The notes under the pieces: generated by a model
What the model was told of the DNA's origin: nothing
What the model saw: only the letters and a program-made list of their open reading frames with translations
Databases searched by the model: none
Assembly (NCBI RefSeq): GCF_003854935.1
Contig: NZ_CP033970.1
Location: forward strand, 1,240,001 to 1,304,000
Source of the DNA: Cupriavidus pauculus
Lineage (GTDB): Bacteria; Pseudomonadota; Gammaproteobacteria; Burkholderiales; Burkholderiaceae
Direction of reading: 5' to 3'
Length of the DNA stretch: 64,000 bases
Program-made: the position numbers and the translations under genes
Shown here: positions 1 to 24,454 of the stretch, piece by piece
Layout of the letters: every line of letters starts with the position of its first letter
How positions within the stretch are numbered: position 1 is the first letter of the stretch

Positions 1-1275
1 GTGTTCCCGCACAACCAGGCGGACCAGCCGGCGCGGCTGCGCGTGGGCCGCTATTGCACGATCGCGCACGACGTCAAGGTCATCCTGGGCAGCTACCACC
101 GTCACGACTGGCACACGATCTACCCGTTCACGGCGCCCAACTTCGGCACGCTGTTCCGGCCGGCCCGGCCCGTGCCGGACTTCTCGTCCACGCGCGGCGG
201 GGTCAGCATCGGCAACGACGTCTGGATCGGCGCGCATTCGGTGATCCTGTCGGGCGTGACGATTGGCGACGGCGCGGTGATCGGCGCCGGCTCGGTGGTG
301 TCGCGCGACGTGGGCGCCTACGAGGTCTGGGCCGGCAATCCTGCCCAGTTCGTCAAGCGCCGCTTCGACGAGGCCACCAGCGCCCGGCTGCAGGCGCTGC
401 GCTGGTGGGACTGGCCGAAAGAGGAAGTGGAAGCCAGCATCGGCTGGATCATGAACGAAGGCGGCCCCGCGCTGGACAAGCTCGCGCAGCACAAGGCCGC
501 GATGATCCACAAGATGCGCGCCACCACCAAGGGCGAGCGCATCGTGGCCGGTGCCAGCGGCATCGTCCGGCTGCGGCTGCCGCAGCAGTGGAAGGCCGGC
601 GCGCCCACCTGGGTGGTGCTGCATGGCTCGCTGGGCTCGATCGATGGCGTGAAGGACTTCGAGGCCGCCGCGCCCGGCGTCAACCTGGTCTTTGCCGATC
701 TGCCGGGCTCGGGTGCGTCGTGGTGCCCGGCCGACTACTCGGCCGAAGGGTTCGCGCGCGAGCTGCGCCCGGCCATCGACCAGGCCATCGACGGCGACTA
801 CCGCATCGTGGGCGTCAGCTTTGGCGGCGCGGTGGGCCTGGCGATGGCGCGCGACAACGGCCGCTGCCGGGGCGTGCTGCTGCTGGACACGCCGTTCGAG
901 GCGAAGAAGCTCTGGCACAACCACCAGTTCCTGCGCGGCGCCATTGCCGGCGACCCCGACAACCAGCACGTGCGCCGCTTTGCCTGGGAAATCTACGGCG
1001 TCACCGAGCACGCGCTGACCGAGCGCACCTACTGGCACCTGCTGGACGACCTGCCCACGCCGGTGCAGGTGCTGACCGGCGACGTGCCGATGCATCCGCC
1101 GCGCCGCACCGCCAAGGTGGCGTGCTGCCTGGACAAGGAAGACCTGGCCGCGCTGCGCCGCCGGGGGATTGGCGTGCAGCAGGTGGCCGGCGGCCACGAC
1201 CTGATCCACGACAACCCCGCGGCAGTCGTCAAGGCCATGGACGCGTTCGCGGCCGAGGCCGTGGCCGCCGCCTGA
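1..1275 (+). CDS. Hexapeptide acyltransferase fused to alpha/beta hydrolase (5' end outside window)
   Basis: The N-terminal ~150 residues are a left-handed beta-helix acyltransferase of the xenobiotic (CatB-like) type: repeated VSIGNDVWIGAHSVI, VTIGDGAVIGAGSVV units and the closing WWDWP segment. From about residue 200 an alpha/beta hydrolase follows, with VVLHGS near residue 202, a nucleophile elbow GVSFGG (Ser about 273), an acid candidate in LLLDTP and a catalytic His in GGHD (about 399). The reading frame is open from base 1 and the usual first helix coils are missing, so the true start lies upstream. It is followed 52 bp later by rfbH on the same strand, so it probably acylates or processes the sugar made by this locus. 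The fusion is unusual; which half is active in vivo cannot be told from sequence. Confidence 0.8.
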   Translation: MFPHNQADQPARLRVGRYCTIAHDVKVILGSYHRHDWHTIYPFTAPNFGTLFRPARPVPDFSSTRGGVSIGNDVWIGAHSVILSGVTIGDGAVIGAGSVVSRDVGAYEVWAGNPAQFVKRRFDEATSARLQALRWWDWPKEEVEASIGWIMNEGGPALDKLAQHKAAMIHKMRATTKGERIVAGASGIVRLRLPQQWKAGAPTWVVLHGSLGSIDGVKDFEAAAPGVNLVFADLPGSGASWCPADYSAEGFARELRPAIDQAIDGDYRIVGVSFGGAVGLAMARDNGRCRGVLLLDTPFEAKKLWHNHQFLRGAIAGDPDNQHVRRFAWEIYGVTEHALTERTYWHLLDDLPTPVQVLTGDVPMHPPRRTAKVACCLDKEDLAALRRRGIGVQQVAGGHDLIHDNPAAVVKAMDAFAAEAVAAA

Positions 1276-1327
1276 TCCGCTACTACAACGGACCTGCCCA
1301 CCATGCCGGGGCAGGCCAGCATGAGTC

Positions 1328-2650
1328 ATGGGAATGAGCAAAGAATCTCTACGCGCAAAGATTGCCGGTCTCGTCGAAGAGTACGCGGCACTGGTCCAGA
1401 GCGAGACGCCGGGCTTCCGGCCCGGTGAAACCGTCATCCCGCCGTCGGGCAAGGTGGTGGGCGCCCCGGAAATGAAGGCGATGGTCGAGGCGTCGCTGGA
1501 CGCCTGGCTGACCACGGGCCGCTTCAACGACGCGTTCGAGCAGCGGCTGGGCCAACTGCTGGGCGTGAAGCACGTGCTGACGGTCAACTCGGGCTCGTCG
1601 GCCAACCTGGTGGCGTTTGCCACGCTGACGTCGCCGCGCCTGGGCGATCGCGCCATCCGCCCCGGCGACGAGGTGATCGGCGTGGCTGCTGGCTTTCCGA
1701 CCACGGTCAACCCGATCCTGCAGTGCGGCGCCGTGCCGGTGTTCGTCGATGTGGAACTGGGCACGTACAACGTGGACGCCAGCCGCATCGAGGCCGCCAT
1801 CACGCCGCGCACCAAGGCGATCATGCTGGCCCACACGCTGGGCAACCCGTTCAACCTGGAAGTGGTGACGGCGCTGTGCCGCAAGTACAACCTCTGGCTG
1901 GTGGAGGACTGCTGCGACGCGCTGGGCGCCACCTACAACGGCCAGCTGGTCGGCACGTTCGGCGACATCGGCACGCTGAGCTTCTACCCGGCCCACCACA
2001 TCACGATGGGCGAGGGCGGCGCGGTGTTCACGAACAACCACGCGCTGAAGACCATCGCCGAGTCGTTCCGCGACTGGGGCCGCGACTGCTACTGCCCGCC
2101 GGGCAAGGACAACACCTGCAACCGGCGCTTCTGCTGGAAGCTCGGTAACCTGCCCGAGGGCTACGACCACAAGTACACGTACTCGCACCTGGGCTACAAC
2201 CTCAAGATCACCGACATGCAGGCCGCCTGCGGCCTGGCGCAGATCGACCGCGCCGAGGGCTTCATCGCCGCGCGCCGCCACAACTTCGGCTTCCTGCGCG
2301 AGCGCCTGGCCGCCTGCAGCGAGATGCTGATCCTGCCGGAAGCCACGCCGAACTCGGACCCGTCGTGGTTCGGCTTCCCGGTGACGCTGCGGCCCGAGGC
2401 CAACGTGCGCCGCACCGACGTGGTCACCTACCTGGACCAGTACCGCATCGGCACGCGGCTGCTGTTCGCGGGCAACCTGACGCGCCAGCCGTACATGATC
2501 GGCCGCAACTACCGCGTGGTGGGCGACCTGACCAACTCGGACATCGTCATGAACGACACGTTCTGGCTGGGCATCTATCCGGGGCTGTCGGAGTCGATGC
2601 TCGACTTCGTGGGCGAGAAGCTCGAACAGTTCTTCGGCGTCGGGTTCTGA
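1328..2650 (+). CDS. rfbH: CDP-4-dehydro-6-deoxyglucose 3-dehydratase (E1, RfbH/AscC)
   Basis: A 440-residue B6-fold enzyme of the DegT/DnrJ/EryC1 superfamily that removes the 3-hydroxyl of CDP-4-keto-6-deoxyglucose using PMP and an iron-sulfur centre. The PLP-lysine of ordinary members is replaced by His in [16 protein letters not shown], the hallmark of this subgroup, and the Cys cluster [17 protein letters not shown] fits the [2Fe-2S] ligands. Length matches the family. The start at 1328 is preferred; ATG at 1334 is an alternative. It lies in a plus-strand operon, with the next gene 2 bp downstream. The enzyme needs a reductase partner (E3, RfbI/AscD) that is not in this window. Confidence 0.93.
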
Positions 2651-2652
2651 CC

Positions 2653-3219
2653 ATGCAGTGCGAGGCGCTGGCGCTGCCCGGCTGCTTTCTGCTGCACGGC
2701 GCCCGCCTGGGCGACGCGCGGGGCGACTTCATGAAGCTGTTCCACGCGCCCACGCTGGCCGCCCAGGGGCTGGAGACCGCGTTTGCCGAATCGTACGTGT
2801 CGACGTCCCACGCGGGCGTGATCCGCGGCATGCACTTCCAGCGGCCGCCGCACGACCACGCCAAGCTGGTGAGCTGCCTGACCGGCCGCGCGCGCGACGG
2901 GCTGGTGGACCTGCGGCGCGGCTCGCCCACCTTTGGCCGTAGCCTGAGCCTGATGCTCAGCGCCGACGTGCCGGCCATGCTCTACATCCCGCGCGGCATC
3001 GCGCACGGCTTTGCCGCCCATGTCGACGACACGCGGCTCTGGTACCTGGTTTCCAGCGTGCATGAGCCGGCGGCCGACGCCGGCATCCATGTGGACGACG
3101 TCGGCATCGACTGGTGGGACGGTGCGCCCGCGCTGGCCGGCGCCACGCCGATCCTGTCGCCGCGCGACACCGCACACCCGTCGCTGGCCGCGTACCTGGC
3201 CCACACCGACTTTTCCTGA
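2653..3219 (+). CDS. RmlC-like cupin sugar epimerase
   Basis: A 188-residue protein of the dTDP-4-dehydrorhamnose 3,5-epimerase fold. It keeps the catalytic-His segment GVIRGMHFQ, the KLVSCLTG strand and the VDLRRGSPTFG and PRGIAHGF signatures. The tail segment that normally carries a catalytic Tyr (Y-x-P) reads SSVHEP here, so the acid residue may be changed. Next to rfbH the likely job is 5-epimerisation of a CDP-4-keto-3,6-dideoxyhexose, as AscE does in ascarylose synthesis. It begins 2 bp after rfbH, so translational coupling is likely. A role in dTDP-rhamnose synthesis is less likely because no rmlABD genes are nearby. Confidence 0.8.
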   Translation: MQCEALALPGCFLLHGARLGDARGDFMKLFHAPTLAAQGLETAFAESYVSTSHAGVIRGMHFQRPPHDHAKLVSCLTGRARDGLVDLRRGSPTFGRSLSLMLSADVPAMLYIPRGIAHGFAAHVDDTRLWYLVSSVHEPAADAGIHVDDVGIDWWDGAPALAGATPILSPRDTAHPSLAAYLAHTDFS

Positions 3220-3225
3220 ACCGCC

Positions 3226-4140
3226 ATGCCGACCGTCTTGCTGACCGGTGCATCGGGCTACGCGGGCGGCGCCATCCGCGACGTCCTGCGCCAGGCCGGA
3301 ATGACCGTGCTGACCGCCGGCCGCCGTGCCGATGACGACCTGCCGTTCGATCTGCTGCGGCCCGACCGCCTGCCCGCGCTGCCCGCCGGCATCGACGCCT
3401 GCGTCCATGCCGCCGCCGCCAACGAGGTGCTGTGCCGGCAGGACCCGCTGGCCGCGTTCACGGCCAACGTGACCGCCACGCGCGCGCTGGCCGGCCGGTT
3501 GCGCGACGCGCAGGTCGGTCACGTGGTCTACCTGTCCACGTTCCACGTATTCGGCCGCCCGGCCGGCCGGCTCGACGAGACCGCCGAGCCGGTGCCGGCC
3601 AACGACTACGGCCTGACCCATCTGCTGGCCGAGCACCTGCTGCGCGCGCAGCCGTTTCGCACCACCGTGATTCGCCCGGCCAATCTGTTCGGCACGCCGG
3701 CCGACTGGTCGACGTTCAACCGCTGGACGCTGGCACCGTTCGACTTCATGCAGCAGGCGCTGCGCGACGGCGCGGTGCGGCTGCTGTCCGACGGCTCGCC
3801 GGTGCGCTGCTACGTCTCGCTGGAGCGGCTGGCGGCGGCGGTCGTCCAGGGGCTGCAGGGCCACCTGCCGCCCGTGACGCACGTCTCCGGCCAGCCGTGG
3901 CGCATGGACGCGCTGGCGCGGCTGTGCGCCGGCGTGGCCGCGCAGGCCAGCGGGCGCGACGTGCCGGTATCGCTCGGCACGCACCGGCCCGCGGAAGCGG
4001 CCTACACGTTCGGCTCGGGGCACTGGGCCGATGAAACCGACGCAGAAGGCGAAGGCGAGGGCGAACGGTTGCGCATGGCGACGTTCGCGCGCCACGTCGC
4101 CGACAGACTGCTGCAAGACAGCAAGGCAGGAACACCATGA
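3226..4140 (+). CDS. NAD(P)-dependent sugar epimerase/reductase (extended SDR)
   Basis: A 304-residue extended short-chain dehydrogenase. The N-terminus TGASGYAGG is the dinucleotide-binding glycine motif and the STFHVFG strand supplies the catalytic Ser/Thr. The expected YxxxK reads YGLTH (around 3607-3621), so Lys is replaced by His, which is unusual for an active reductase. By position after the cupin epimerase it would reduce the 4-keto group of the CDP-dideoxy sugar (AscF/AbeJ role). It starts 6 bp after the previous stop and its end overlaps the next gene by 4 bp. The function is inferred from context; substrate and activity are unproven given the changed Lys. Confidence 0.78.
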   Translation: MPTVLLTGASGYAGGAIRDVLRQAGMTVLTAGRRADDDLPFDLLRPDRLPALPAGIDACVHAAAANEVLCRQDPLAAFTANVTATRALAGRLRDAQVGHVVYLSTFHVFGRPAGRLDETAEPVPANDYGLTHLLAEHLLRAQPFRTTVIRPANLFGTPADWSTFNRWTLAPFDFMQQALRDGAVRLLSDGSPVRCYVSLERLAAAVVQGLQGHLPPVTHVSGQPWRMDALARLCAGVAAQASGRDVPVSLGTHRPAEAAYTFGSGHWADETDAEGEGEGERLRMATFARHVADRLLQDSKAGTP

Positions 4141-4625
4141 ACCGCATCTCCACGCTGGCAAAGATCTCGCCGCTGGCCGACATCGAACGCTCGGTGCGCG
4201 GCAACCACGTGGCCGTGGGCGACGACGTGACCATCGACAGCTTCGTCAAGATCAAGTTCGCGGGCGGCGACGGCAACGTCGAAATCGGCCCGCGCTGCTA
4301 CCTGAACTCGGGCGTGGTGATCTACTCGGGCAATGGCGTGCGGATGGGGGAGGGCGTGCTGATCGCGGCCAACACCACGCTGGCGCCGACCAACCACGAG
4401 TACCGCTCGCGCGAACGTACGATCATCGCGCAGCGCTTCATGCCGTCGCGCGGCGGCATCGTGATCGGCGACGACTGCTGGATCGGCGCGAACTGCGTGC
4501 TGCTGGACGGCACCGTGCTCGGCACGGGCTGCGTGGTGGGCGCCGGCACCGTGCTCAAGGGCGAGTGGCCGGATTACGCGGTGATCGCTGGCAATCCGGC
4601 CCGCATCGTCAAGTATCGCGACTGA
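4137..4625 (+). CDS. Hexapeptide-repeat acyltransferase
   Basis: A 162-residue left-handed beta-helix protein with repeats such as VEIGPRCYL, VRMGEGVLI, IVIGDDCWIGANCVL and VVGAGTVL, the His-containing loop TNHEYRSRERT and the closing AGNPARIVKYRD seen in sugar O-/N-acetyltransferases. The start overlaps the previous stop (ATGA), so it is the last gene of the plus-strand operon. Its stop codon lies 17 bp inside the end of the convergent rfbG gene. It probably acetylates the finished deoxysugar; the acyl donor and acceptor cannot be read from sequence. Confidence 0.85.
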   Translation: MNRISTLAKISPLADIERSVRGNHVAVGDDVTIDSFVKIKFAGGDGNVEIGPRCYLNSGVVIYSGNGVRMGEGVLIAANTTLAPTNHEYRSRERTIIAQRFMPSRGGIVIGDDCWIGANCVLLDGTVLGTGCVVGAGTVLKGEWPDYAVIAGNPARIVKYRD

Positions 4626-5685
4626 CGAACGCGTCGATCTGGGCCTCGGTGATGGCGCGCGCGTGGGCGGGCGATGCCTGCACCTGGCGGTACCAGTCGG
4701 CCGTGGCCAGCAGGGCGCGGTCGAGCGTCCAGCGCGGCTGCCAGCCGAGCGTGCGCATGGCCTTCGACGAATCCAGGTACAGATAGCCGGCCTCGTGCGG
4801 CGCCGCCGCGCGCATCGCGGCATCGAGTTCCCAGCGCAGTTGCGGCCAGTGACGCTGCAAGCCTTCCAGCACGGCCTGGACGGGCCGGTTGTCGCTGGCG
4901 GCCGGGCCGAAGTTGAAGGCGTCGGCAAAGGCGGCCGCGTCGTCGCCGAGCAACCGGGTGCCGAGCAGCAGGTAGCCGTGCAGCGATTCCAGCACGTGCT
5001 GCCACGGCCGCGTGGCTTCCGGATGGCGGATGCGCAGCGGCTGGCCCGCCGCCGCGGCGCGCGCGGCATCGGGGATCAGCCGGTCGGCCGACCAGTCGCC
5101 GCCGCCGATCACGTTGCCGGCGCGGGCGCTGGCCAGATGCTGGCCGGCCGACGCCAGGAACGCCCGGCGATAGCTCGCCACGACCAGCTCCGCGCCGGCC
5201 TTGCTGGCGCTGTAGGGGTCGTGGCCGCCTAGCGGATCGGTCTCGCGGTAGCCCCAGAGCCATTCGCGGTTCTCGTAGCACTTGTCGGTCGTGACGACCA
5301 CCACGGCGCGCACCGATGGACTGGCGCGCACCGCTTCGAGCACGTTGACGGTGCCCATCACGTTGGTCGACCACGTATCGACCGGCGTGCGGTAGCTTTC
5401 GCGCACCAGCGGCTGGGCCGCCAGGTGGAACACGATCTCGGGCTCGGCCGCCTGCATGGCCTGCTGCAGGCGCGCGGCGTCGCGGATATCGGCGACGTGG
5501 TGCGCGTGCAGGTCGCGGGCGACATCGGCCAGCGTGAACAGGTTGGGCTCGGTGGCGGGGGCCAGCGCGTAGCCGGTGACGCGGGCGCCGGCACGCGCGA
5601 GCCACATCGACAGCCACGCGCCCTTGAAGCCGGTGTGGCCGGTCACGAACACGCGCCGGCCGTGGTAAGCGGCGAGCGCCTCCAT
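4609..5685 (-). CDS. rfbG: CDP-glucose 4,6-dehydratase
   Basis: A 358-residue extended SDR that converts CDP-glucose to CDP-4-keto-6-deoxyglucose. It has the nucleotide motif TGHTGFKGAW, the VVVTTDKCYENREW strand with the catalytic Thr-Asp-Lys typical of RfbG, the active-site motif YSASKAG, and ARAGNVIGGGDW. The ATG at 5685 overlaps the rfbF stop by one base (TGATG), giving a coupled operon ogt-rfbF-rfbG. The product feeds RfbH, encoded on the opposite strand. Its end runs into the convergent acyltransferase gene. Confidence 0.93.
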   Translation of the reverse strand: MEALAAYHGRRVFVTGHTGFKGAWLSMWLARAGARVTGYALAPATEPNLFTLADVARDLHAHHVADIRDAARLQQAMQAAEPEIVFHLAAQPLVRESYRTPVDTWSTNVMGTVNVLEAVRASPSVRAVVVVTTDKCYENREWLWGYRETDPLGGHDPYSASKAGAELVVASYRRAFLASAGQHLASARAGNVIGGGDWSADRLIPDAARAAAAGQPLRIRHPEATRPWQHVLESLHGYLLLGTRLLGDDAAAFADAFNFGPAASDNRPVQAVLEGLQRHWPQLRWELDAAMRAAAPHEAGYLYLDSSKAMRTLGWQPRWTLDRALLATADWYRQVQASPAHARAITEAQIDAFVSRDT

Positions 5686-6458
5686 CACCAGACCTTCCAC
5701 GGCGCCTTGCCGGTCTGCCAGAGCTGTTCGAGCTGGTTCTTCTCGCGCAGCGTGTCCATCGGCTGCCAGAAGCCGCCGTGCTCGAACGCCAGCAGGTGGC
5801 CCTCGCGCGCCAGGCGGCCCATCGGCTCCTGTTCCCAGCTGATGTGGTCGCCGTCGATCAGGTCGAGCACCTCGGGCTGCAGCACGAAGAAGCCGCCGTT
5901 GATCCAGCCGCCGTCGCCGCGGGGCTTTTCGGCAAAGCCGGTGACCATGTCCTCGTTCGTGCGCTGCAGCGCGCCGTAGCGGCCCGGGGGCTGCACGGCG
6001 GCCACGGTGGCCCAGCGGCCGTGGCGGCGGTGGAACGCAATCTCGGCACTGATGTCGATGTCGGACACGCCGTCGCCGTAGGTGAAGCAAAACGTCTCGC
6101 CGGCGGGCAGGTAGTCGCGCACGCGGCGCAGGCGGCCGCCGGTCTGCGATTCCTCGCCCGTGTCCACCAGGGTCACGCGCCACGGCTCTGCCTTCTGGCA
6201 GTGCACTTCCATGCGGTTGCCGGACATGTCGAACGTGACGTCGGACATGTGCAGGAAGTAGTTGGCGAAGTATTCCTTGATGACGTAGCCCTTGTAGCCC
6301 AGGCAGATCACGAACTCGTTGACGCCGTGCGCCGAGTACATCTTCATGATGTGCCACAGGATGGGCTTGCCGCCGATCTCGATCATCGGCTTCGGCCGCA
6401 GGTGCGATTCCTCGGAAATGCGGGTGCCAAGGCCACCGGCCAGGATCACGGCTTTCAT
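5685..6458 (-). CDS. rfbF: Glucose-1-phosphate cytidylyltransferase
   Basis: A 257-residue nucleotidyltransferase that makes CDP-glucose from CTP and glucose-1-phosphate, the entry step to CDP-3,6-dideoxyhexoses. The N-terminus [21 protein letters not shown] is the NTP-binding signature of the family; [14 protein letters not shown] carries the metal-binding Asp. Length matches RfbF/AscA. The ATG overlaps the stop of the glycosyltransferase gene (ATGA), so the sugar-nucleotide enzyme is translated together with the glycosyltransferase, which suggests a shared purpose. Confidence 0.95.
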
Positions 6459-8689
6459 GCGACGGCCTCCTCCTGCGCGTCCACGACCTCGACCTTCATG
6501 CCGGCGATCTCGAACGCGGTGGGCACGGGGCCGGCTTCGAGCGTGGCCAGGTCCAGGCCGAACTGCTCGGCCAGCAGGCCGGCCAGCGCGGACTTGTCGT
6601 AGTCGTTCTCTTCCAGCCACGCGGCCAGCAGGCGGTACAGCGGCAGCGCGTACGGGCGCTGGCCGATGGCCTCGATCAGCAGGTCGATGGCCTCGGTGCG
6701 CGACGCCATGTGGTACTTGTAGACGGCCAGCCCGTAGGTGACCATCCAGTGGCGGTACCACGTGGAACTGAGGTTTTCCAGCACGTTGTGCAGCTTGTCG
6801 TACTGGCCCGTCTCGATGTGGGCGGCCACGCTCAGCGCCATGTCGGTGGTGGAGTACCACGTGCCGCCGAAGTAGACACCCTGCTCGCGCGCGGGCATCG
6901 CCTCGGGCAGGCCCTTGCGCGCGTGCGACAGCGCGTAGGCCTGCTGCTCGAACCACGCGGCGAAGGCCGGCGCGTCGGTCATCGCGCTGGTCTCCACGCG
7001 CTGGCGCAGCGACAGGCGCAGTTCGTTGAGCCGGCCCACGTCGGACGCCAGCTCGCAGGCCACGTTGACGTACGCGGCCTCGTCCTCGCAGATCAGCGGG
7101 TCGAGCCCGCAGTCCTTGAGGAACACGGCAGAGATGCGCTGGTGGAAGGCCGGGCCGGTCAGCGACACCACGGGCACGCCCATCCACAGCGCATCGCACG
7201 TGGTGGTGCCGCCCGTGTACGGCGTGGCGTCCAGCGCGATGTCGATGCGGTGGTACATCACGTACTGGTTCTCGGCCACGCGGTCGATCAGCTCCACGCG
7301 GTCCAGGTCGATGCGGTGCGCGGCCAGGCGGGCCTCGAACAGCTCGCGCACGCCTTCGCGGGCCACGTTCTGGGCCTCGATCAGCAGCCGGCTGTCCGGG
7401 CAGGCGGCCAGCACGGCGGACCAGAGCCGCAGCGTCAGGTCGCTCAGCTTGGTCAGCCCGTTGCACGAGCCGAACGTGATGTAGCCGTTGCGCAGCGCGG
7501 GAGTGTCCTTGACGCGGTACTTGTCCTCGTAGACCTGCAGCGGGCTGGTGACCAGCGGATGGAACGCGCAGAACACCGGCGCGCGCAGCAGCGTCTCGGT
7601 GTAGTGGCTCTCCGTGCCGGCCGGGTCGCCGGTCCAGTCGGAGATCCGGTAGTCGATCGACGGCATGCCGGTGGTGCCCGGAAAGCCCAGCCACGTCATC
7701 TGCACCGGCGCCACGCGGTGCGCCAGCACCAGCAGCGGCGACTGGCCGGTGTAGCCGCCCAGGTCGACCATCACGTCGATGTCCTCGCGGCGGATGCGCT
7801 GCACGGTGTCCAGCGTGGACAGGGTGCTCACGTCGATCATCGCCGTGGCGTACTGCGCCAGCTTCTCGGTCAGCACGTCGTGCTTCCGGTTCATGCGGAA
7901 CAGGTAGACATCGAAGCGGTTGCGGTCGATGTTGGCGATCAGCGGGATCAGGAAGTAGGCAATGGCGTGCCAGCCCAGGTCGGCGGACAGGAAGCCGATG
8001 CGGATGCGCGGCGCCGTGCTGCCCAGCGGCGCCGTGGCGGGCACGGCATCGCGCGTCAGCATCGCGGCAAAGTCCTCGGCCTCGGCGCGCAGCGTCTGGG
8101 CGGTGGTGTCTTCGGCGCTCAGCATGCCCAGCAGCACGTTGGAGCGGTTGGTTGCCAGCGACGGATCGCCGTAGCGGGCCACGCGGTACGCCTGCAGGCC
8201 GCCGGCCGGGTCGCCGTTGGCGCGGCGTTCGTTGCCCAGGTTGGCGAACGCGATGTAGTTGGTGGGATCGGCCTCGACCAGACGCTGGTAAAGGTCCTGC
8301 GCGGCGCGGCGCTCGTTCATCATCGTGTGGACGCGCGCCATCGACAACTGCAGGTTCGTGTCGTCCGGACGGGCCACCAGCGCGCGTTCCAGCAGCGGCC
8401 GGGCGTCGCGGGCATTGTCCTGGCGGGTCAGCAGCATGCCCAGCAGGCCCTGCAGGGCCAGGTCGTCGGGCCACCTGGCCAGCGCCTGCTCGGCCAGCGG
8501 CAGGGCCTCGGCGTCGCGGTCCAGCAGCAGCAGCGAGTAACCCTTCAGGTATTCCACCTGCGCCGGTGGCGCGCCGCGCCGGCCGGCCTGGTCGGCCGTG
8601 CCGTAGGCGGCCTGATAGTTGCCGATCCGGAACAATGCCCACGCTTCTTCCAGCGCGTGCGATCCGCTTCCCCTTGGCTGTCTTTTCAT
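6455..8689 (-). CDS. TPR/SPINDLY-type O-linked glycosyltransferase (GT41-like)
   Basis: A 744-residue cytosolic protein. Residues about 10-200 are tetratricopeptide-like repeats. The following ~400 residues match the O-GlcNAc transferase/SPINDLY catalytic region: [47 protein letters not shown] and [18 protein letters not shown] further helical C-terminal domain of about 150 residues is not explained by the family core. Start at 8689 was chosen because an upstream in-frame extension has no homology-like content. It is the first gene of the operon with rfbF and rfbG and lies next to the flagellar filament genes, so flagellin (Ser/Thr) is the likely acceptor. The donor sugar is inferred, not shown. 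Confidence 0.85.
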
Positions 8690-8727
8690 TTGCTTGTGTC
8701 TTTCGATGGCCTGCAGACGCCCGGACG

Positions 8728-8741
8728 ATCCATTAATGGAT
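8728..8741. promoter_or_regulatory. 14-bp perfect palindrome upstream of the glycosyltransferase operon
   Basis: ATCCATTAATGGAT is a perfect palindrome 38 bp upstream of the glycosyltransferase start, in the only intergenic space that could hold its promoter. It could be an operator for a dimeric regulator. No clear sigma-28 or sigma-70 boxes were found with confidence. Confidence 0.35.
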
Positions 8742-8803
8742 GGTCTGGTCCCATGCCAACAAATTAACAAGCCGCCGTGCGGGGCGACGGCGCGAACACA
8801 ACG

Positions 8804-8840
8804 CAAAAAAAGGGCTATTTCGGCCGGTAGCGCGGCCGGC
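8804..8840 (-). terminator. Possible terminator of the flagellar operon
   Basis: Reading the minus strand after the flhB-like gene, a short GC-rich stem (GCCGG/CCGGC, 8823-8840) is followed after about a dozen bases by a run of seven T (A run at 8805-8811). The stem and T-run are not directly joined, so this is a weak call. Confidence 0.3.
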
Positions 8841-8876
8841 GTGGCGGATCGGCCCCACCGGTCGGGGCCGGGGGCG

Positions 8877-9179
8877 TCAGGCCGGCGTCAGGGCGAGCGG
8901 GTTGGCCGCGTCGGGGCCGGCTTCCATGCGGTGCAGCCACGCCAGCAGTTCGGCCACGGCCACGTAGAGCTGGGGCGGGATCTGGCTGTCCAGGTCCACT
9001 TGCATCAGCAGATTGACGAGCGCGGGCGATCCGTGCACGTAGACGCCGGCCTCGCGGGCGCGGGCGATGATGGCCTCGGCGGACATGCCGTAGCCCTTGG
9101 CCACCACGCGCGGGGCGTTGTCGCTGGACTGGTAGGAGAGGGCGACGGCGGCGCCGCGGTCGGACGGGTGGTCGCTCAT
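8877..9179 (-). CDS. FlhB C-terminal-domain-like export switch protein
   Basis: A 100-residue protein resembling the cytoplasmic C-terminal domain of FlhB/YscU: AVALSYQSSDNAPRVVAKG, then AREAGVYVHGSPALVNLLMQ, IPPQLYVAVAELLAWLHRM. The autocleavage Asn-Pro-Thr-His of real FlhB is absent and there are no membrane helices. It overlaps the fliK stop by 4 bp, so it is co-translated with the hook-length ruler. In known FlhB, the C-terminal domain is the target of FliK during the substrate switch, so this stand-alone copy may tune that switch. Many Proteobacteria have such a gene; its exact function is not settled. Confidence 0.8.
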   Translation of the reverse strand: MSDHPSDRGAAVALSYQSSDNAPRVVAKGYGMSAEAIIARAREAGVYVHGSPALVNLLMQVDLDSQIPPQLYVAVAELLAWLHRMEAGPDAANPLALTPA

Positions 9180-10519
9180 GCTGGCAGCGCGATGACGGTG
9201 GGCGTCGACGGGGCGTCCTCGGTCGACACGTTCATGTTCAGCAGCGCGATGCCGCGTGCCTCCAGTTGCGCGCGAAAATCGGCGCGGCCCTGGATCAGCC
9301 GCGCGGCGGCGTCGCTGTCGGCGGCGACCAGCCGTGCTTCGAGCCCGTGGGCGCCCAGCGTCAGCACCGCATCGACGCTGCCCAGCATCGGCAGGTTCAG
9401 GCGCAGGCGCGTGCTCCAGCTTGCGGCGGCGGCCGGCGCGCCGCCGGCTTCGCGTTCGGCCACGTGGTCCGGATGGTGTGTGATTTCCCAGTCGACGGGC
9501 ATGCCGGGCCAGGCGTCGATCGTCGCGCGAAACTGCTGCGAGGCCAGCAGTTCAAGCTGCTGGCGCACCACGCCCTCGCTGGACGGATGGATCGGCGGGC
9601 CTCGGTCGGGCTGCGGCTGGGTGGCGCTGTTGTCGGGGGCGTTCCAGCTCGCCACGATGGCGGCATGCTGGGCGCGCGCGATATGGTGGCCCTCGTGTGA
9701 GATCTCGGCCGTGAGCTGGTAGGCGTGCGCGGCGGCGCTGGCATGGGCGGCCAGCCGCTGCTCGGCGGCGGGGCTGGACGGCGTCTGTGGTGCCTGCGCG
9801 GTGGCCGCGTTGCCCGGCGACGGCTGGGCCGGTTTGGCGGGGTCGCCGTGCGCGGGCACGCCGGTCGACAGCGGATAGATGACCGGCCGCGTCAGTTCGG
9901 CCAGGATCGTCGCGCTGGGCGGCGCCATCGGGCTGGGCGTGGACGGACCGCCGTAGGGCAGCAGCGCAGCCGGTGCCGGCGCCGGGGCCGATGGCGTCGC
10001 AGCGGGCTGGCCTTGCGGCTGGGGCTGGGCGGGGTTGCGCAGCGTGGCCTGCGGCTCCTGCAGCAGCGTGGCAAGCGGGCGCTGGCCCGTGACCCATTGC
10101 GTCAGGTGCGATTCATAGAACAGCCCGCTCTGGTCGACAAAGCGCGCCAGTGCGCTGGCCAGGTCCTGCGTGGCGCCGGGCTGGCCGGCCGGCGCGGTGG
10201 CCAGCAGCGGCGCGCCGGGGCGTGCCGGCGCGGCGTCGCCGCCTTCGAACAGGTCCAGGATCGCCTTGGCGGCAAAGCTCAGTGTTTCGCGCGTGGAGGT
10301 GGTCTGGCCGGCCAGCCGGGGGTCGGTGCCGCCCGGCGTCAGCGTGCCGGGCTGGCGCGCCTGCACCGTCTCGCCGGTGGACGACTGCACGTCGCCCTGC
10401 GACACGTCGGGCACCGGCATCAGCGCGGCGAGCTTGTCGATGGCCAGCGCCGGGCGCGATAGCTGCGGGTCCGGGGCCTGATGCGGGATCAGGCTGGGAG
10501 GAATCTGGATGCCGGTCAT
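9176..10519 (-). CDS. fliK: Flagellar hook-length control protein FliK
   Basis: A 447-residue protein. The first ~300 residues are Pro/Ala/Gln/Thr-rich and of low complexity, as expected of the unfolded ruler. The C-terminal ~100 residues (LRLNLPMLGSVDAVLTLGAHGLEARLVAAD and RADFRAQLEARGI) match the conserved Flg_hook domain that switches export specificity. It lies after fliT (74 bp gap) and before the flhB-like gene (4 bp overlap). The low-complexity N-terminal part should diverge quickly between species. Confidence 0.85.
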   Translation of the reverse strand: MTGIQIPPSLIPHQAPDPQLSRPALAIDKLAALMPVPDVSQGDVQSSTGETVQARQPGTLTPGGTDPRLAGQTTSTRETLSFAAKAILDLFEGGDAAPARPGAPLLATAPAGQPGATQDLASALARFVDQSGLFYESHLTQWVTGQRPLATLLQEPQATLRNPAQPQPQGQPAATPSAPAPAPAALLPYGGPSTPSPMAPPSATILAELTRPVIYPLSTGVPAHGDPAKPAQPSPGNAATAQAPQTPSSPAAEQRLAAHASAAAHAYQLTAEISHEGHHIARAQHAAIVASWNAPDNSATQPQPDRGPPIHPSSEGVVRQQLELLASQQFRATIDAWPGMPVDWEITHHPDHVAEREAGGAPAAAASWSTRLRLNLPMLGSVDAVLTLGAHGLEARLVAADSDAAARLIQGRADFRAQLEARGIALLNMNVSTEDAPSTPTVIALPA

Positions 10520-10593
10520 GGCCGCGTGTCAGCGATGGGAACGGATGCGCTACGCGCGCGCGCGGCGCCCCGGTCGGCCCGGGGGCGCGTGGG

Positions 10594-10926
10594 TCAGACG
10601 GCGCCGTAGGCCGTGGAAAGTTCGAGCTTGCGGCGCGAATTGTTGAGCAGGGCGCCCAGTTCGGCCAGGCGCGGCATGGTCAGGTCGCGGATGCGGGCGT
10701 CGTGGGCCAGGATGCGCTCCAGCAGCTGGAAGCGGCGCAGGCGCTCGGCGTCGGTGAACGGCGCGCTGTGGTCCAGTAGGCGCAGGCGGTCCACTTCGGC
10801 CATGTAGACCTTCTGCAGGTCGGCCAGCGCGTCCCAGTTCGACGCGCGCGCGGCGTCGAGCATCTGCTCGGACAGCACCAGCAGCTCTTCGTAGCTGCGA
10901 ACGATGGGGGACATGGCAAACATCAT
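10594..10926 (-). CDS. fliT: Flagellar chaperone/regulator FliT
   Basis: A 110-residue all-helical protein at the normal fliT place directly after fliS. SYEELLVLSEQMLDAARASNWDALADL is the typical first helix pair, followed by LLERILAHDARIRDLTMPRLAELGALL. In the family it binds FliD as an export chaperone and can inhibit the FlhDC master regulator. The ATG at 10926 overlaps the fliS stop by one base (TGATG); a second in-frame ATG at 10914 is also possible. Confidence 0.82.
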   Translation of the reverse strand: MMFAMSPIVRSYEELLVLSEQMLDAARASNWDALADLQKVYMAEVDRLRLLDHSAPFTDAERLRRFQLLERILAHDARIRDLTMPRLAELGALLNNSRRKLELSTAYGAV

Positions 10927-11375
10927 CAGTTGTCCTGCAAAACGGGTTGGGCCGCCACGGCCGGCTCGTGCGGCATGGCGTCGGCGGGGGCCGCCGGGTC
11001 GATGGCCGCCCAGGCCGAGGCCAGGTTTTCCAGCAGGGTGTCGACTTCGGCCAGCAGGGCCGGGTCGCTGCGCAGGTTGGCCAGCATCAGGCGGCGGGTC
11101 ATGTATTCGTACAGCGATTCGAGGCTGGCGGAGATCTCTCCGCCCGCCTCGTGATCCAGCACCGCGCGCAGGCCGTTGTCGATGATGTTGATGGCCTTGG
11201 AGATTGCATTGCCGCGCGCTTCCAGCTCGCCGTTTTCCATATGGAACTTCGCCCGGGCGATGGCCGAGCGCGCGCCGTCGTACAGCATGGCGATCAGCTT
11301 GTGCGGGCTGGCACTCATGACCCCGGTCTGGACACCGACCTGGGCATAGGCGTTGATACCTTGGCGCGCGAACAT
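10926..11375 (-). CDS. fliS: Flagellin export chaperone FliS
   Basis: A 149-residue protein with the FliS signature YAQVGVQTGVMSASPHKLI and MLYDGARSAIARAK near the N-terminus, and the LYEYMTRRLMLANLRSD helix. FliS wraps the C-terminal helices of unexported flagellin. The last ~25 residues are an Ala/Pro-rich tail beyond the usual family end. It lies 17 bp after fliD and is coupled to fliT. Confidence 0.93.
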   Translation of the reverse strand: MFARQGINAYAQVGVQTGVMSASPHKLIAMLYDGARSAIARAKFHMENGELEARGNAISKAINIIDNGLRAVLDHEAGGEISASLESLYEYMTRRLMLANLRSDPALLAEVDTLLENLASAWAAIDPAAPADAMPHEPAVAAQPVLQDN

Positions 11376-11392
11376 GGCGAGACTCCGTTGGA

Positions 11393-12814
11393 TTACTTCT
11401 TGGTGCTGCTGCCGTTGAGGGCCGAGAACTGCTGCGTCAGGTAGCTGCTGGTCTGGTTCATCTGGGCGACCAGCAGGTCGAGCTGCGTGAACTGCTTGCG
11501 GTAGCGGTCCATCGTCGCGGTGATCTGGTCCTGGGTGAACGTGTACTTGTCTTCCAGGTCCTTCAGCGTCGACGTGATGCCGTCGGTGGCCGCGGACAGC
11601 GCGCCGCCGGTGGCGTTCAGCGAGTCGTTGTAGTCGGTCACGGTCTTGCCGATGCCGGCAGCGCCGTTCACGCCGGCAAACACGGCCTTCAGCTTGTCCA
11701 TGTTGTTCGTGATGGTCTTGGACAGCTTGTCGTCGTTGACCTTCAGCGTGCCGTTGTTGCTGCTGTCCAGCGAGAACTCCACGCCGATATCGGAAAGCGT
11801 GATGGTCTTGCCGTTGCCGTCGGACATCGGCGTGTTCAGCATGGCGCGCATGCGGGCCTGGATGTTGCGCAGCGTGCCGTCGCCGTTGAGCGCGCCCTTG
11901 GTGCCGGCGTCGGTGTCGAAGGCGGTCAGCGTCTTGGCGGCGGTCAGCACGTTGTTGTACGCGGCCACGAAGCCGGCCACGGCGGTCTTGATCGACGCTG
12001 TGTCCACCGTCATGTCGAGGCTGGTGGTGCCCAGGCTCTTCAGGTTCAGCGTGACGCCCTGCGCGGCCTCGGAGATCGTGTTGCTCTGGCTCGTGACGGC
12101 GATGTTGTTGATCGTCAGCGCGGCGTTGGCGGCCTTGACCTTCTCGGACATGCCGTTGGGCTGCGTGGCCAGGGTGGGGTCGAAGGCGACCACGTCACCC
12201 ACGGCGCTGTCGCTGGCGGAAACCTTGAAGCCCGACTTCGTGCCGGTCTGGTCCGACGTCAGCACCAGGCGGTAGGGCGTGCCGCTGCCGTCGTTGATGA
12301 TGCTGGCCGTCACGCCGATGCCGGCCTTGTTGATCGAGTCGCGGATGCCTTGCAGCGACGTGTCCGAGCCGATCGTCACGGTCTTGGTGCTGGTGGGCGT
12401 GCCGCCCGAGCCCAGGTTCTCGCCAAAGTCGAACGTGATGGTGCCGCCGCCGATGGCGGCCTTCTGGTCGGCCACCTGCTTGGAGACCACGCTCTGCGCG
12501 GCGGCCAGCGAGGTGACGTTGACCGTGTACTTGCCGGACACGGCCGTGGCGTCGTTGGTGGCCGTCAGCACGCTGTCGCTGCCCACCTTGGCGGTCACGG
12601 CGCTGTAGGTCTGGGCGTTGGCCAGCGTCTTGGCGGCGGCCGCGTAGGCGTCCAGCACGCTCTTGACGGTGCCGTAGCCGCTCAGCTTGGCCTGGTAGCT
12701 CTTGGCCTGGGTGTTGATGGCGTCCAGCCGGGTGTTCTCGCTCGCTTCCAGCTTGTCGAGCAGATCGCCAAGCTGGAGATTGGAGCCTACGCCGATGTTC
12801 GAGATCGCTGCCAT
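11393..12814 (-). CDS. fliD: Flagellar filament cap protein FliD
   Basis: A 473-residue HAP2-type cap protein. The N-terminal NIGVGSNLQLGDLLDKLEASENTRLDAIN and the C-terminal TLKDLEDKYTFTQDQITATMDRYRKQFTQLDLLVAQMNQ...YLTQQFSALNG are the conserved coiled-coil ends that assemble at the filament tip. The middle is Ser/Thr/Gly-rich and variable. It follows flaG by 48 bp and precedes fliS by 17 bp. No convincing own sigma-28 promoter was found, so it is likely read from the flaG promoter. Confidence 0.93.
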   Translation of the reverse strand: MAAISNIGVGSNLQLGDLLDKLEASENTRLDAINTQAKSYQAKLSGYGTVKSVLDAYAAAAKTLANAQTYSAVTAKVGSDSVLTATNDATAVSGKYTVNVTSLAAAQSVVSKQVADQKAAIGGGTITFDFGENLGSGGTPTSTKTVTIGSDTSLQGIRDSINKAGIGVTASIINDGSGTPYRLVLTSDQTGTKSGFKVSASDSAVGDVVAFDPTLATQPNGMSEKVKAANAALTINNIAVTSQSNTISEAAQGVTLNLKSLGTTSLDMTVDTASIKTAVAGFVAAYNNVLTAAKTLTAFDTDAGTKGALNGDGTLRNIQARMRAMLNTPMSDGNGKTITLSDIGVEFSLDSSNNGTLKVNDDKLSKTITNNMDKLKAVFAGVNGAAGIGKTVTDYNDSLNATGGALSAATDGITSTLKDLEDKYTFTQDQITATMDRYRKQFTQLDLLVAQMNQTSSYLTQQFSALNGSSTKK

Positions 12815-12862
12815 GTTCTTTTACCTGTTTTTGTTGTGCTTCAACTGACGGGTTGCGAGGAA

Positions 12863-13234
12863 TCAGACTGCCTGGCTGACGAACAGCCCCTGGAGCTTGT
12901 CGATGGCGCGCGCGAAGCGCAGCACCTCTTCACTGGGCAACTGGCGGATCAGTTCGCCGGTTTCCTTGTCCACGACCTTGGTGATCACGCGGTGCGTGGT
13001 GTCGTCGATTTCGAACCGCAGGCCGATGGAGGTGGTCTTGAGCACGTCGACCAGTTCGTCGACGGCGGCCGTCATGTCGCCCGGGCCGGTGCGGCCACCC
13101 ATGTCCTGGGCGGCGGCGGCCGGCCGGACGGCACCGGCGGTCACGGCCGCCGCGGCGGGCGCGGGGGCGTGGGTGACGGCGGGTTCGGCGGGAATGCGTG
13201 CCGCCGGGATGGAAACGGGTTGGGTGGATGCCAT
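12863..13234 (-). CDS. flaG: FlaG family flagellar protein
   Basis: A 123-residue protein. After an Ala/Pro-rich N-terminus the C-terminal ~70 residues carry the FlaG fold: LRFEIDDTTHRVITKVVDKETGELIRQLPSEEVLRFARAID. FlaG affects filament length in several bacteria. The ATG at 13234 was chosen over an upstream ATG because it has a GGAG ribosome site six bases away. It sits between fliC and fliD as in many betaproteobacteria. Confidence 0.87.
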   Translation of the reverse strand: MASTQPVSIPAARIPAEPAVTHAPAPAAAAVTAGAVRPAAAAQDMGGRTGPGDMTAAVDELVDVLKTTSIGLRFEIDDTTHRVITKVVDKETGELIRQLPSEEVLRFARAIDKLQGLFVSQAV

Positions 13235-13278
13235 GGTCAGCTCCGTCCGGTAGGGCAGGGATAACACTACGGTTGAAA

Positions 13279-13310
13279 TGTTTTGCAGGCAGTGGTCTGC
13301 CTGCAAAACA
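13279..13310. repeat. Perfect 14-bp inverted repeat in the flaG upstream region
   Basis: Arms TGTTTTGCAGGCAG (13279-13292) and CTGCCTGCAAAACA (13297-13310) are exact complements around a 4-base loop TGGT. It lies between the fliC terminator and the flaG start, so it could be an operator or a leader hairpin of flaG. The half-site GCAGGCAG also occurs near the fliC promoter. Confidence 0.7.
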
Positions 13311-13317
13311 CTCCGGC

Positions 13318-13346
13318 AAAAAAACCGGGCCTTGCGGCCCGGTTTT
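13318..13346 (-). terminator. Rho-independent terminator of fliC
   Basis: On the minus strand, just 14 bp after the fliC stop, the stem CCGGGCC/GGCCCGG (extended by AAAA/TTTT) with a 4-base loop runs into seven T residues (A run at 13318-13324). This is a textbook intrinsic terminator that separates fliC from flaG. Confidence 0.9.
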
Positions 13347-13360
13347 CTGCGGCGCGGCGA

Positions 13361-14542
13361 TTAACGCAGCAGCGAGAGCACGTTTTGCGTGGTCTGGTTG
13401 GCTTGCGACAGCACCGACGTACCAGCTTGTTGCAGGATGTTCGCGCGGGTCATGTTCGACACTTCCGTTGCGTAGTCTGCGTCTTCGATGCGCGAACGCG
13501 AGGCCGACAGGTTGTTGATCGTCGTGCTCAGGTTGTTGATCGCGGATTCGAAGCGGTTCTGCACGGCACCCAGCGAGGAGCGCAGGGCGTCGACCGAAGC
13601 CAGGGCCTTGTCCAGCGTTGCCAGCGGGTTGGCCGTGGCAGCGTTGGTGACAGCCGACGTCGTCGTGGCGGCCTTGATGGCAACCACACCGGTCGTCGTG
13701 TTCAGCGTGCCCATCGACGAGTCGATGGCGATGTACACGTTGGCTTGCGTGTCGTCCAGGTTCTTGGCGTTCAGTGCCTTGACGTCGGCAGCGTTCGTTG
13801 CCGTGGTCAGGGCCACTTGCATGAACAGCTTGCCGTTGCTGTCCTTGACCAGCGAGGCGGTAGCGCCCGTGTTGGTCGACACGCCCAGGGCGGTGCGCAG
13901 GGCAGCCGTCGTGTTGGCGGTGGTAGCGTCGGCAGCGGCGGTTGCGCCAGCGCCGAACACGTCGGTCACGGCCTTGTCGCCAGCGGTCACAGCGGTCACG
14001 CCGCCTTGCGGGCCGTTCACGTTGAAGCCCATGGCGCCCAGGGTCTTCGAGGTGATTTCCTTCAGGTCGATCGAGATCGTTTCGCTGTCGTTGGCGCCAA
14101 CCTGGATCGTCATCTTCTGATCCTTGGCCAGAACCTTCACGCCGTTGAATTGCGTTTGGGCCGACACGCGGTCGATTTCAGCCAGACGTTGTGCGATTTC
14201 GTCCTGGACCGACTTCAGGTCCGACTGCGAGTTCGTGCCGTTGGCGGCTTGCACCGACAGTTCACGGATACGTTGCAGGTTGTTGTTGACTTCGGTCAGC
14301 GCGCCTTCGGTCGTCTGCGAGATCGAGATACCGTCGTTGGCGTTGCGCGAAGCTTGCGTCAGGCCCTTGATGTTGGCGGTGAAGCGGTTGGCAATGGCTT
14401 GGCCAGCTGCGTCGTCCTTGGCGCTGTTGATGCGCAGACCCGACGACAGGCGTTGGATTGCGGTGTTCAGCGACGATTGCGACGTGTTCAGGTTGCTCTG
14501 CGTTTGCAGCGACAGAATGTTGGTGTTGATGACTTGCGCCAT
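13361..14542 (-). CDS. fliC: Flagellin FliC
   Basis: A 393-residue flagellin. The N-terminal D0/D1 region ([54 protein letters not shown]) and the C-terminal [20 protein letters not shown]...[13 protein letters not shown] are the conserved filament core. The middle (about residues 170-300) is Thr/Ala/Asn-rich and surface exposed in this family, so it offers many Ser/Thr acceptors for O-glycosylation by the neighbouring SPINDLY-type enzyme (inference). It has an AGGAG ribosome site, a sigma-28 promoter about 100 bp upstream and its own terminator, so it is monocistronic and strongly expressed. Confidence 0.97.
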
Positions 14543-14638: not shown

Positions 14639-14665
14639 TTATCGACCGTGGGTGAGAAGACTTTA
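14639..14665 (-). promoter_or_regulatory. Sigma-28 (FliA) promoter of fliC
   Basis: On the minus strand TAAAGTCT (14665-14658), an 11-base spacer and GTCGATAA (14646-14639) match the FliA consensus TAAAGTTT-N11-GCCGATAA with two mismatches in all. It predicts a leader of roughly 90 bases before the fliC ATG. Confidence 0.85.
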
Positions 14666-14797: not shown

Positions 14798-15118
14798 TCA
14801 GCGGCGCTTGCGGGTGCGCGGGATGAACAGGCGCACGAAGTCCGGCGACGCCTCGGCGTCCAGCATGGCCGTGGCCTCGCCCGCGCCATGGGCGGGCGTC
14901 ACCACCGTGATGGCGCGCTTGTAGATCAGCGTGGGGGTGGCATCTTCCGCGGAACGCCCCAGCAGGATCATGTAGTTGTCCGACGCCAGCACCACGCCGT
15001 TGAGACGCGTGCCGTTCGACAGGTGGACAACCACCGCGGCGCGGCTGGCGCTGTGCGCGGCGAACTGCAACTGCTGCAGCTTTCTGCTGGGTCTGGGAGC
15101 CTTGATTTCCTTCTTCAC
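14798..15118 (-). CDS. Hfq-like Sm-fold RNA-binding protein
   Basis: A 106-residue protein whose core follows the Hfq Sm1/Sm2 pattern: LQFAAHSASRAAVVVHLSNGTRLNGVVLASDNYMILL and then LIYKRAITVVTP, parallel to the YKHAIS motif of Hfq. Both ends are extended: a basic N-terminus (KKEIKAPRPSRK) and a C-terminal tail ending in IPRTRKRR. The GTG at 15118 was chosen because GGAG lies five bases upstream; a TTG at 15160 would add 14 residues. The normal Hfq gene is usually beside hflX and miaA, so this is probably a paralog. Its position beside fliC suggests, without proving, a role in flagellar RNA control. Confidence 0.7.
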   Translation of the reverse strand: MKKEIKAPRPSRKLQQLQFAAHSASRAAVVVHLSNGTRLNGVVLASDNYMILLGRSAEDATPTLIYKRAITVVTPAHGAGEATAMLDAEASPDFVRLFIPRTRKRR

Positions 15119-15537
15119 AACTTCTCCGGAAGAGCCCGCGAGGGTTCTGGCGGCTGACAACGGTCCGATGGTCGGGGCCTGTGGGCGGCGTCGCTCTAAA
15201 AGTGACGTTCCGGCCAGGCCGACGGCGGCGAGAATTGAAACATTCGCTCTCGGAACCGGCGCTGGGACGTGCCACCATCATTGCAGCAGACAAGCGTTTC
15301 ACGAAAGTGGCGAACGCTGCCCAACTGCGCCGGCGTGGCGGCACTGCCAGGAGAGAAGGGGAATACTTCAGGTGGGAGAGTAACAAAGTTTTACAAGCGT
15401 TGACGAAGCCCCGGTGATGCTGGGCCTAGAGGATTTGCTCTATTTCACCGATTGCGTGATGCTTCTGATTCGGGTAGCACTTTTGCTCGCGAGCTTGCAG
15501 GCGGTAGCCGGAGGCGCGTCCCGCAGCCCGCGCCAGC

Positions 15538-23879: not shown

Positions 23880-24454
23880 AGGACGTGTGCAGGTGTGACG
23901 GGGTGTCGCAGATGGGGTGGGTTACGGGGGGCAGGGTGGGCTGGGGCGGGTGTCACGTCCCAAAGCTAGTGCGATCGCGCTGTGGCGAGGCGAGATAGCG
24001 GACGACGCCCAGGGGTTGCCCAGATGACGGGACGCCGACGGGACGTGCTGGGATGGAATTGCGTCGGCAAAGGGCCGAGTTGCGGCAGGGCGTCGGCAGC
24101 CGGTGTATGCGTTAGAGCGAAGATTTAATGGAGCAGGAGTTCGTCGGCCGCTTCCTGTTGTGTTGGGGTCGCTAGGTATACAGAAAGATTGTCTCTGAAC
24201 GACCCAAAGCGGAAGTTTCCTATTCCTCAAAACGGCCGCTCGGCGACTTCCTAGTCGGCGAACATTCCTGACAGTGGCGCGACGAGGTTGCTGGGTGCAA
24301 GAGCCCAGCATTCTCCCGGCGCGGGATCCGTCAGATCCTGCGCCCCCCCTTTGTAGGGGAAACTCTGGCGCTTCATGAGGCTGCCATCGAGTATTCTCTT
24401 GCGAGCTAGATGTCGCGGCTTAGTCAAGAACAAGCACGTCCTGGAGATCGGCAG
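23880..24454. other. Gene-poor lower-GC spacer at the left edge of an island
   Basis: About 575 bp without a supportable gene. GC content falls through this stretch from the high backbone level toward the low level of the following gene. No tRNA, integrase, terminal repeat or clear promoter was found; a C-run/G-run pair near 24343-24360 could form a small hairpin. Confidence 0.5.

Follow-up and report, generated by a model that had tools for sequence, protein, structure and literature searches.

Gene Content of the Locus

This analysis concerns a sugar cassette in the flagellar gene cluster of Cupriavidus pauculus, at the start of a 64,000-nucleotide stretch of contig NZ_CP033970.1 (assembly GCF_003854935.1, positions 1,240,001 to 1,304,000, forward strand) that we call the window. 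The cassette occupies window bases 1-8689 and contains eight genes in two convergent runs (Table 1). The plus-strand run encodes an acyltransferase-hydrolase, RfbH, an RmlC-like epimerase, a short-chain dehydrogenase/reductase (SDR), and a hexapeptide acetyltransferase; the minus-strand run encodes a SPINDLY-like glycosyltransferase (TPR-GT41), RfbF, and RfbG. There are overlaps of 4 nt between GT41 and rfbF (6455-6458), 1 nt between rfbF and rfbG (5685), and 4 nt between the SDR and acetyltransferase genes (4137-4140), while rfbG and the acetyltransferase gene converge with a tail-to-tail overlap of 17 nt. An earlier note on this DNA had all three rfb genes coupled to the glycosyltransferase by overlapping codons, which holds for GT41, rfbF, and rfbG but not for rfbH, a gene of the opposite strand and the other run.

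The cassette lies between fliE and the genes that run from an flhB-like gene and fliK to fliC. To its left, outside the window start, are fliE, fliF, fliG, fliH, and fliI; to its right follow, in order, the flhB-like gene, fliK, fliT, fliS, fliD, flaG, and fliC, and the cassette therefore splits the flagellar cluster. The genes named in the earlier note (RfbF, RfbG, RfbH, TPR/GT41, and fliC-flaG-fliD-fliS-fliT-fliK) are all present, with curated cut-offs exceeded wherever these are listed. The cassette does adjoin fliC...fliK as described there, although the fliE side and the FlhB-like gene place it inside the flagellar cluster and not merely beside it. A flagellar cluster interrupted by genes for a sugar nucleotide and for a glycosyltransferase is the arrangement by which we recognize a flagellin glycosylation island.

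Table 1. Features of the cassette and the adjoining flagellar genes (window coordinates)
Feature	Position	Strand	Basis
Acyltransferase (left-handed beta-helix) + alpha/beta-hydrolase fusion, 3' part	1..1275	+	PF00132, PF12697
rfbH (ddhC/ascC), CDP-4-keto-6-deoxyglucose 3-dehydrase, [2Fe-2S] and pyridoxamine phosphate type	1334..2650	+	NF011936, 747 bits vs cut-off 423
RmlC-like epimerase, AscE-like by gene order	2653..3219	+	PF00908
SDR 4-ketoreductase, AscF-like by gene order	3226..4140	+	PF01370/PF04321
WbbJ/WcaF-like hexapeptide O-acetyltransferase	4137..4625	+	PF00132; NF007240, 85 bits, below cut-off 243
rfbG, CDP-glucose 4,6-dehydratase	4609..5685	-	TIGR02622, 497 bits vs cut-off 278
rfbF, glucose-1-phosphate cytidylyltransferase	5685..6458	-	TIGR02623, 466 bits vs cut-off 300
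TPR-GT41 (SPINDLY-like), 744 aa, presumed flagellin O-glycosyltransferase	6455..8689	-	PF13844, E 5e-38, plus TPR
Terminator-like hairpin between flhB-like and GT41 genes	8771..8791	-	2 overlapping matches vs 0.4 expected; weak
FlhB C-terminal-like protein	8877..9179	-	PF01312, C-terminal part
fliK-like	9176..10519	-	PF02120
fliT	10594..10926	-	PF05400
fliS	10926..11375	-	PF02561
fliD	11393..12814	-	PF02465, PF07195; best E 3.5e-49
flaG	12863..13306	-	PF03646
fliC, flagellin, presumed acceptor	13361..14542	-	PF00669, PF00700 (best E 1.7e-43); NF005294, 536.5 bits
Sigma-28-like promoter of fliC	14639..14665	-	2 mismatches to consensus; 0.01 expected in window

The Encoded Enzymes

RfbF, RfbG, and RfbH all score above their curated cut-offs and together point to a CDP-3,6-dideoxyhexose pathway. 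The best RfbH E-value against a curated family model (5e-225) excludes chance, and the protein matches the solved E1 structures 3bcx (E 6e-205) and 3bb8. In the alignment to 3bcx, RfbH keeps a His in place of the pyridoxal phosphate lysine together with a Cys-rich stretch, the residues that we take to be the functional His and the Fe-S ligands. The TDK...YSASK pattern of RfbG is consistent with the triad of a CDP-glucose 4,6-dehydratase. A second close copy of RfbG or RfbH is absent from the window genome.

The RmlC-like and SDR genes directly 3' of rfbH correspond in position to AscE and AscF of an ascarylose-type route, an assignment made on families and gene order rather than on AscE/AscF sequences. 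The epimerase scores 129 bits, under the TIGR01221 cut-off of 155.75; its His61 and Tyr131 align with His62 and Tyr132 of Mycobacterium tuberculosis RmlC, and its nearest solved relative, 5buv, is without that Tyr. The whole acyltransferase-hydrolase is a 506-aa protein whose start lies 246 bases ahead of the window and 51 nt past the fliE stop. The best NCBIfam matches of its beta-helix part are streptogramin/chloramphenicol acetyltransferases, far under the cut-off (123.5 of 300), and on these scores it is not a resistance gene.

The glycosyltransferase combines TPR with the GT-B fold of the GT41 family, whose known TPR members act on proteins. His241 and Lys414, presumably the catalytic positions, align with SPINDLY and are invariant in 22 rows from the genus. 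The C-terminal part (~600-735) is helical, well predicted, and lies beyond residues 5-595, the range covered by matches to known GT41 structures; it might bind flagellin. A Pfam scan of the cassette returned no second glycosyltransferase family, leaving TPR-GT41 as the sole one. An apparent GT41-RfbF fusion (P0163) was considered as Rosetta-stone evidence and rejected, as its middle reads out of frame, the mark of a frameshift product.

Recurrence at the fliE Site of Cupriavidus

We inspected the fliE site in all 57 of 61 Cupriavidus genomes in which fliE was found. The site is empty in 26, is occupied in 29 by a contiguous GT41-rfbF-rfbG core, and holds a remote GT41 in 2, so that presence and content vary at one site among relatives, as in a flagellin island. 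The gene-neighborhood comparison that the earlier note proposed supports it within Cupriavidus: the core recurs at the flagellar site. Both flanks are visible for 26 of the 29 cores, and the fliE side only for G204, G185, and G212. Across the genus, GT41 is found at E<=1e-20 in 34 of 61 genomes, in three of which (G209, G222, and G214) it is located elsewhere than the fliE site; the reading is broken in the GT41 of G227 and in one of two in G203. Tandem GT41 pairs occupy the fliE site in five genomes. The remote GT41s, in G160 and G090, are accompanied by an aminotransferase-like gene and stand without rfbFG, content that perhaps represents another type of flagellar sugar.

Beside the cores lie different finishing arms. 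RfbH is present in 6 of the 61 genomes, and 4 of the 6 have it at the flagellar site as an RfbH arm (G000, G191, G197, and G204); the G191 GT41 is 87% identical to that of the window. In these four, the acyltransferase-hydrolase is full-length in G000 and G191, a remnant in G204, and without a match in G197. A C-methyltransferase arm accompanies 24 cores: 16 of these arms contain RmlC-like, FkbM, reductase, and 246-aa genes, 2 contain aminotransferase, GNAT, and hexapeptide transferase genes, and in 6 an RmlC-like gene precedes the methyltransferase. The remaining core (G223) has neither arm and only a partial acetyltransferase match.

Histories of Core and Arm

Core and arm have discordant histories. 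In the RfbG tree, all 29 flagellar rows fall into a single clade (100/96), within which the RfbG proteins of the four RfbH-arm genomes are not one clade (2 changes forced; approximately unbiased test, p 0.033). In the RfbH tree, the 4 flagellar Cupriavidus rows group together (97/99), with 4 Achromobacter rows as sister (84/79, not starred). The GT41 tree has 36 rows, and starred branches force each of the 4 changes that its RfbH-arm rows require; the same tandem GT41 pair in G201, G203, G204, and G205 is followed by methyl, methyl-amino, RfbH, and methyl arms, respectively. The arms are nevertheless clustered on this tree (10 changes vs a shuffled mean of 16.2), and swaps have therefore been occasional. 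A backbone tree of fliE, fliF, and flhB calls for 9 island changes, 7 of them forced, and places the window genome in a clade of nine with two genomes of the RfbH arm, four of the methyl arm, one bare, and one empty. The trees indicate that arms were exchanged between cores at times, apart from the history of the core.

Related Loci in Other Genera

In a family sample of 201 genomes, RfbH was found at E<=1e-100 in 29, and the 28 loci besides that of the window genome were taken as stretches of 11.9-19.3 kb. Two of these carry the flagellar cassette (G191 and G197). A genome scan with an SDR alignment gave 40 loci, including 3 already-known Cupriavidus and 4 Achromobacter loci. All 4 Achromobacter loci have GT41-rfbF-rfbG-rfbH-RmlC-SDR-acetyltransferase-hydrolase as one operon, convergent with fliC; the acyltransferase-hydrolase is the last gene, and in one of the four the match extends over 0.6 of its length. 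In Achromobacter kerstersii, flhC, motA, and motB come next, and the GT41 is part of a 1167-aa methyltransferase-TPR-GT41 protein with Arg at the catalytic Lys position. A Sulfuritalea metagenome-assembled genome has the Achromobacter gene order, with no flagellar match on its 12.8-kb contig. In the 32 SDR loci outside these three genera, rfbF and rfbG are both near the SDR in 26, and a GT41 or fliC match was found in none. Alginatibacterium and an Oceanospirillales genome have the order E3-rfbF-rfbG-rfbH-RmlC-SDR, E3 being the DdhD/RfbI (AscD-type) reductase, and two cyanobacterial contigs have rfbF-rfbG-rfbH-RmlC-SDR.

Proposed Pathway and Alternatives

The observed gene content and operon geometry, the repeated association of GT41-rfbF-rfbG with the flagellar site, and the discordance between core and arm histories suggest to us that the locus is a flagellin O-glycosylation island in which GT41 would use a CDP-3,6-dideoxy-L-hexose of the ascarylose type, a reading to which we give a probability of roughly 0.77. 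Judging from family membership, RfbF would make CDP-glucose, RfbG would convert it to CDP-4-keto-6-deoxyglucose, RfbH would remove the 3-hydroxyl with the help of an electron donor whose gene lies elsewhere, and the RmlC-like enzyme would invert C5. Reduction at C4 by the SDR would then give the CDP-3,6-dideoxyhexose, probably of the L-series and with either configuration at C4. One or two acyltransferases may O-acylate the sugar, and TPR-GT41 would move it in the cytoplasm, before export, onto Ser/Thr of flagellin, which we infer to be the acceptor. The earlier note had proposed flagellin O-glycosylation by an ascarylose- or abequose-like sugar; comparison gives good support to its first part (the core is at 29 of 57 sites, and 4 Achromobacter loci converge on fliC), and of the two sugars ascarylose is favored, and abequose less so, because RmlC-like and SDR genes follow rfbH and the order E3-F-G-H-epimerase-reductase is known in two other genomes.

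A broader reading, which we consider reasonably probable, is that of a plug-in system. Here a conserved GT41-RfbF-RfbG core would make CDP-4-keto-6-deoxyglucose-derived sugars and use them directly on flagellin, and the finishing arm would be swapped between close relatives at one site. The exchangeable arms would provide 3-deoxygenation plus C5 inversion, C-methylation with FkbM, or C-methylation plus amination. An arm swap, even where the tandem GT41 pair is the same, would then change the flagellar sugar and leave the transferase unchanged.

Several observations weigh against the flagellin-island interpretation. In 26 of the 28 family-sample RfbH loci, rfbF-rfbG-rfbH form one run with none of the searched flagellar genes. 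CDP-sugars are not a known donor class of GT41 enzymes, and the CDP-sugar donor is one that we infer from linkage only. The 29 core loci share ancestry, and their RfbF proteins do not form one group (2 changes). The Sulfuritalea RfbH and RfbG are placed away from the flagellar rows, and this placement and the split RfbF rows argue against a simple single origin. The Achromobacter GT41 belongs to a different lineage, with Arg at the Lys414 position. The catalytic residue of the SDR YxxxK motif is Lys; the window SDR has YxxxH, invariant across 12 aligned relatives. Pfam and NCBIfam scans found no E3 reductase in the cassette. An E3-like candidate gene lies elsewhere in the genome and, because it is present in 61 of 61 Cupriavidus genomes, is not specific to the cassette; NCBIfam singled out no E3 in the 3 of 22 Fer2 places scanned. 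We note that 24 of the 26 lipopolysaccharide (LPS)-type RfbH loci also show no E3-like match, and linkage of E3 is therefore not a strict mark of the pathway.

The flagellins themselves add a further point on this side. Median FliC length is 396 aa in island genomes (22 recovered of 29) vs 429 aa in empty ones (25 of 26; Mann-Whitney p 1.3e-4, counting the 275-aa G214 reading); the Ser/Thr number does not differ (p 0.61), and the Ser/Thr fraction is 0.246 vs 0.213 (p 0.0066). In a phylogenetic control of 5 independent pairs, from which G214 and G160 were left out, the shorter FliC was on the island side in 2.7 pairs on average and on the empty side in none (median p 0.25), and the length link is not counted as evidence.

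It is very unlikely that the CDP-sugar serves LPS or another surface glycan and that its genes only happen to lie among the flagellar ones. The 26 nonflagellar family-sample loci are what such a role would predict, but they carry a different RfbG clade, and the flagellar form occupies 29 of 57 sites and stands beside fliC in Achromobacter. Moreover, the Pfam scan of the cassette detected neither Wzx nor Wzy next to its sole glycosyltransferase, and an O-antigen-like locus on another contig (C2) of the window genome, with rmlBDAC and wecE, encodes a separate dTDP-sugar pathway. GT41 enzymes are known to take UDP-GlcNAc, UDP-Glc, or GDP-Fuc as donors, and the window GT41 shares the fold of these enzymes. 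It could accordingly place GlcNAc, glucose, or fucose on flagellin, with the CDP-sugar attached to that first sugar through an unlinked enzyme or decorating something else, an arrangement also compatible with the two genomes whose remote GT41 lacks rfbFG. We regard this as improbable: rfbFG follows 29 of 29 close GT41s while the arms vary, and the Pfam scan showed no second glycosyltransferase family in the cassette.

A similarly doubtful variant retains flagellin glycosylation by GT41 with a D-series end sugar, abequose or paratose, the RmlC-like protein being inactive at C5. Sequence alone does not fix the stereochemistry, and the epimerase falls under the RmlC cut-off; yet RmlC-like and SDR genes follow rfbH in Cupriavidus, Achromobacter, Sulfuritalea, Alginatibacterium, the Oceanospirillales genome, and both cyanobacterial contigs, and the epimerase keeps the His and Tyr, whereas 5buv is without the Tyr. 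With C3 deoxygenated, an RmlC-family epimerase would usefully act only at C5, which also speaks for the L-series.

Relation to Known Systems

Arabidopsis SPINDLY uses GDP-fucose to modify plant proteins. Compared with it, the window GT41 has the extra helical C-terminal part and differs in the loop with which GT41s bind the base. 3,6-Dideoxyhexoses have been known chiefly from O-antigens, and the ascarylose O-antigen pathway of Yersinia pseudotuberculosis likewise runs through RfbF/G/H (DdhA/B/C; E1 match, E 6e-205) and then sugar-specific genes, an epimerase and a reductase. Its product is an O-antigen, whereas the window locus lies at a flagellar site, has no linked DdhD, and adds acyltransferases and a GT41. 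The ascarylose genes of Yersinia are reported to follow the ddhDABC pattern (PMC3715488).

According to the accessible text of a 2016 study of enterobacterial flagellin glycosylation islands, 198 strains have a GT41 with a SPINDLY domain, and 4 strains (type 23) have genes for CDP-4-keto-6-deoxyglucose (PMC4875605). These islands resemble ours in flagellar-cluster location, GT41, CDP-4-keto-6-deoxyglucose genes, and acetyl- and methyltransferases, and differ in taxon; within that text, neither "rfb" (main text) nor a 3,6-dideoxyhexose route appears, the presence of GT41 in type 23 is unstated, and GlcNAc derivatives are suggested for GT41 with wider specificity allowed (PMC4875605). For Clostridium flagellar islands (2026), RfbF, RfbG, RfbH, and RfbS are predicted to supply paratose for flagellin, and other 3,6-dideoxyhexose cases are predicted, according to the part of the article at hand (PMC13317340). 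Unlike our locus, these follow a paratose and not an ascarylose route, and in C. sporogenes, the strain with a 3,6-dideoxyhexose, the candidate transferases are TPR-GT2 and Maf; the same part has 0 occurrences of GT41, SPINDLY, Cupriavidus, and Achromobacter (PMC13317340).

The claim of the earlier note that the combination is not recognized as described accordingly needs narrowing, as the portions of these two papers that we cite separately predict GT41 and CDP-4-keto-6-deoxyglucose/3,6-dideoxyhexose genes for flagellin islands (PMC4875605, PMC13317340); the rest of the claim stands. Searches of an open-access library, which lacks most subscription papers, yielded no report that pairs GT41 with an ascarylose-type route or that describes a GT41-rfbF-rfbG core or one-site arm exchange, and no CDP-3,6-dideoxyhexose plus GT41 flagellin system, in Cupriavidus, Achromobacter, or elsewhere. 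If our reading is correct, the donor range of the OGT/SPINDLY family would extend to CDP-activated sugars, and Cupriavidus, with its empty sites, RfbH arms, methyl arms, and bare core, would be a natural series for studying which donor GT41 selects and what the flagellar sugar does. The link between an ascarylose-type route and flagella in two genera of beta-proteobacteria would likewise imply a wider role for 3,6-dideoxyhexoses.

Other Features of the Window

An Hfq-like protein (PF17209) is encoded at 14798-15160, right upstream of fliC. Farther along, the GC content drops to 0.53-0.54 at 24001-27000, vs 0.62-0.74 around it, and this stretch contains a DUF4917/SIR2-like gene (24410-25495), possibly a mobile or defense gene.

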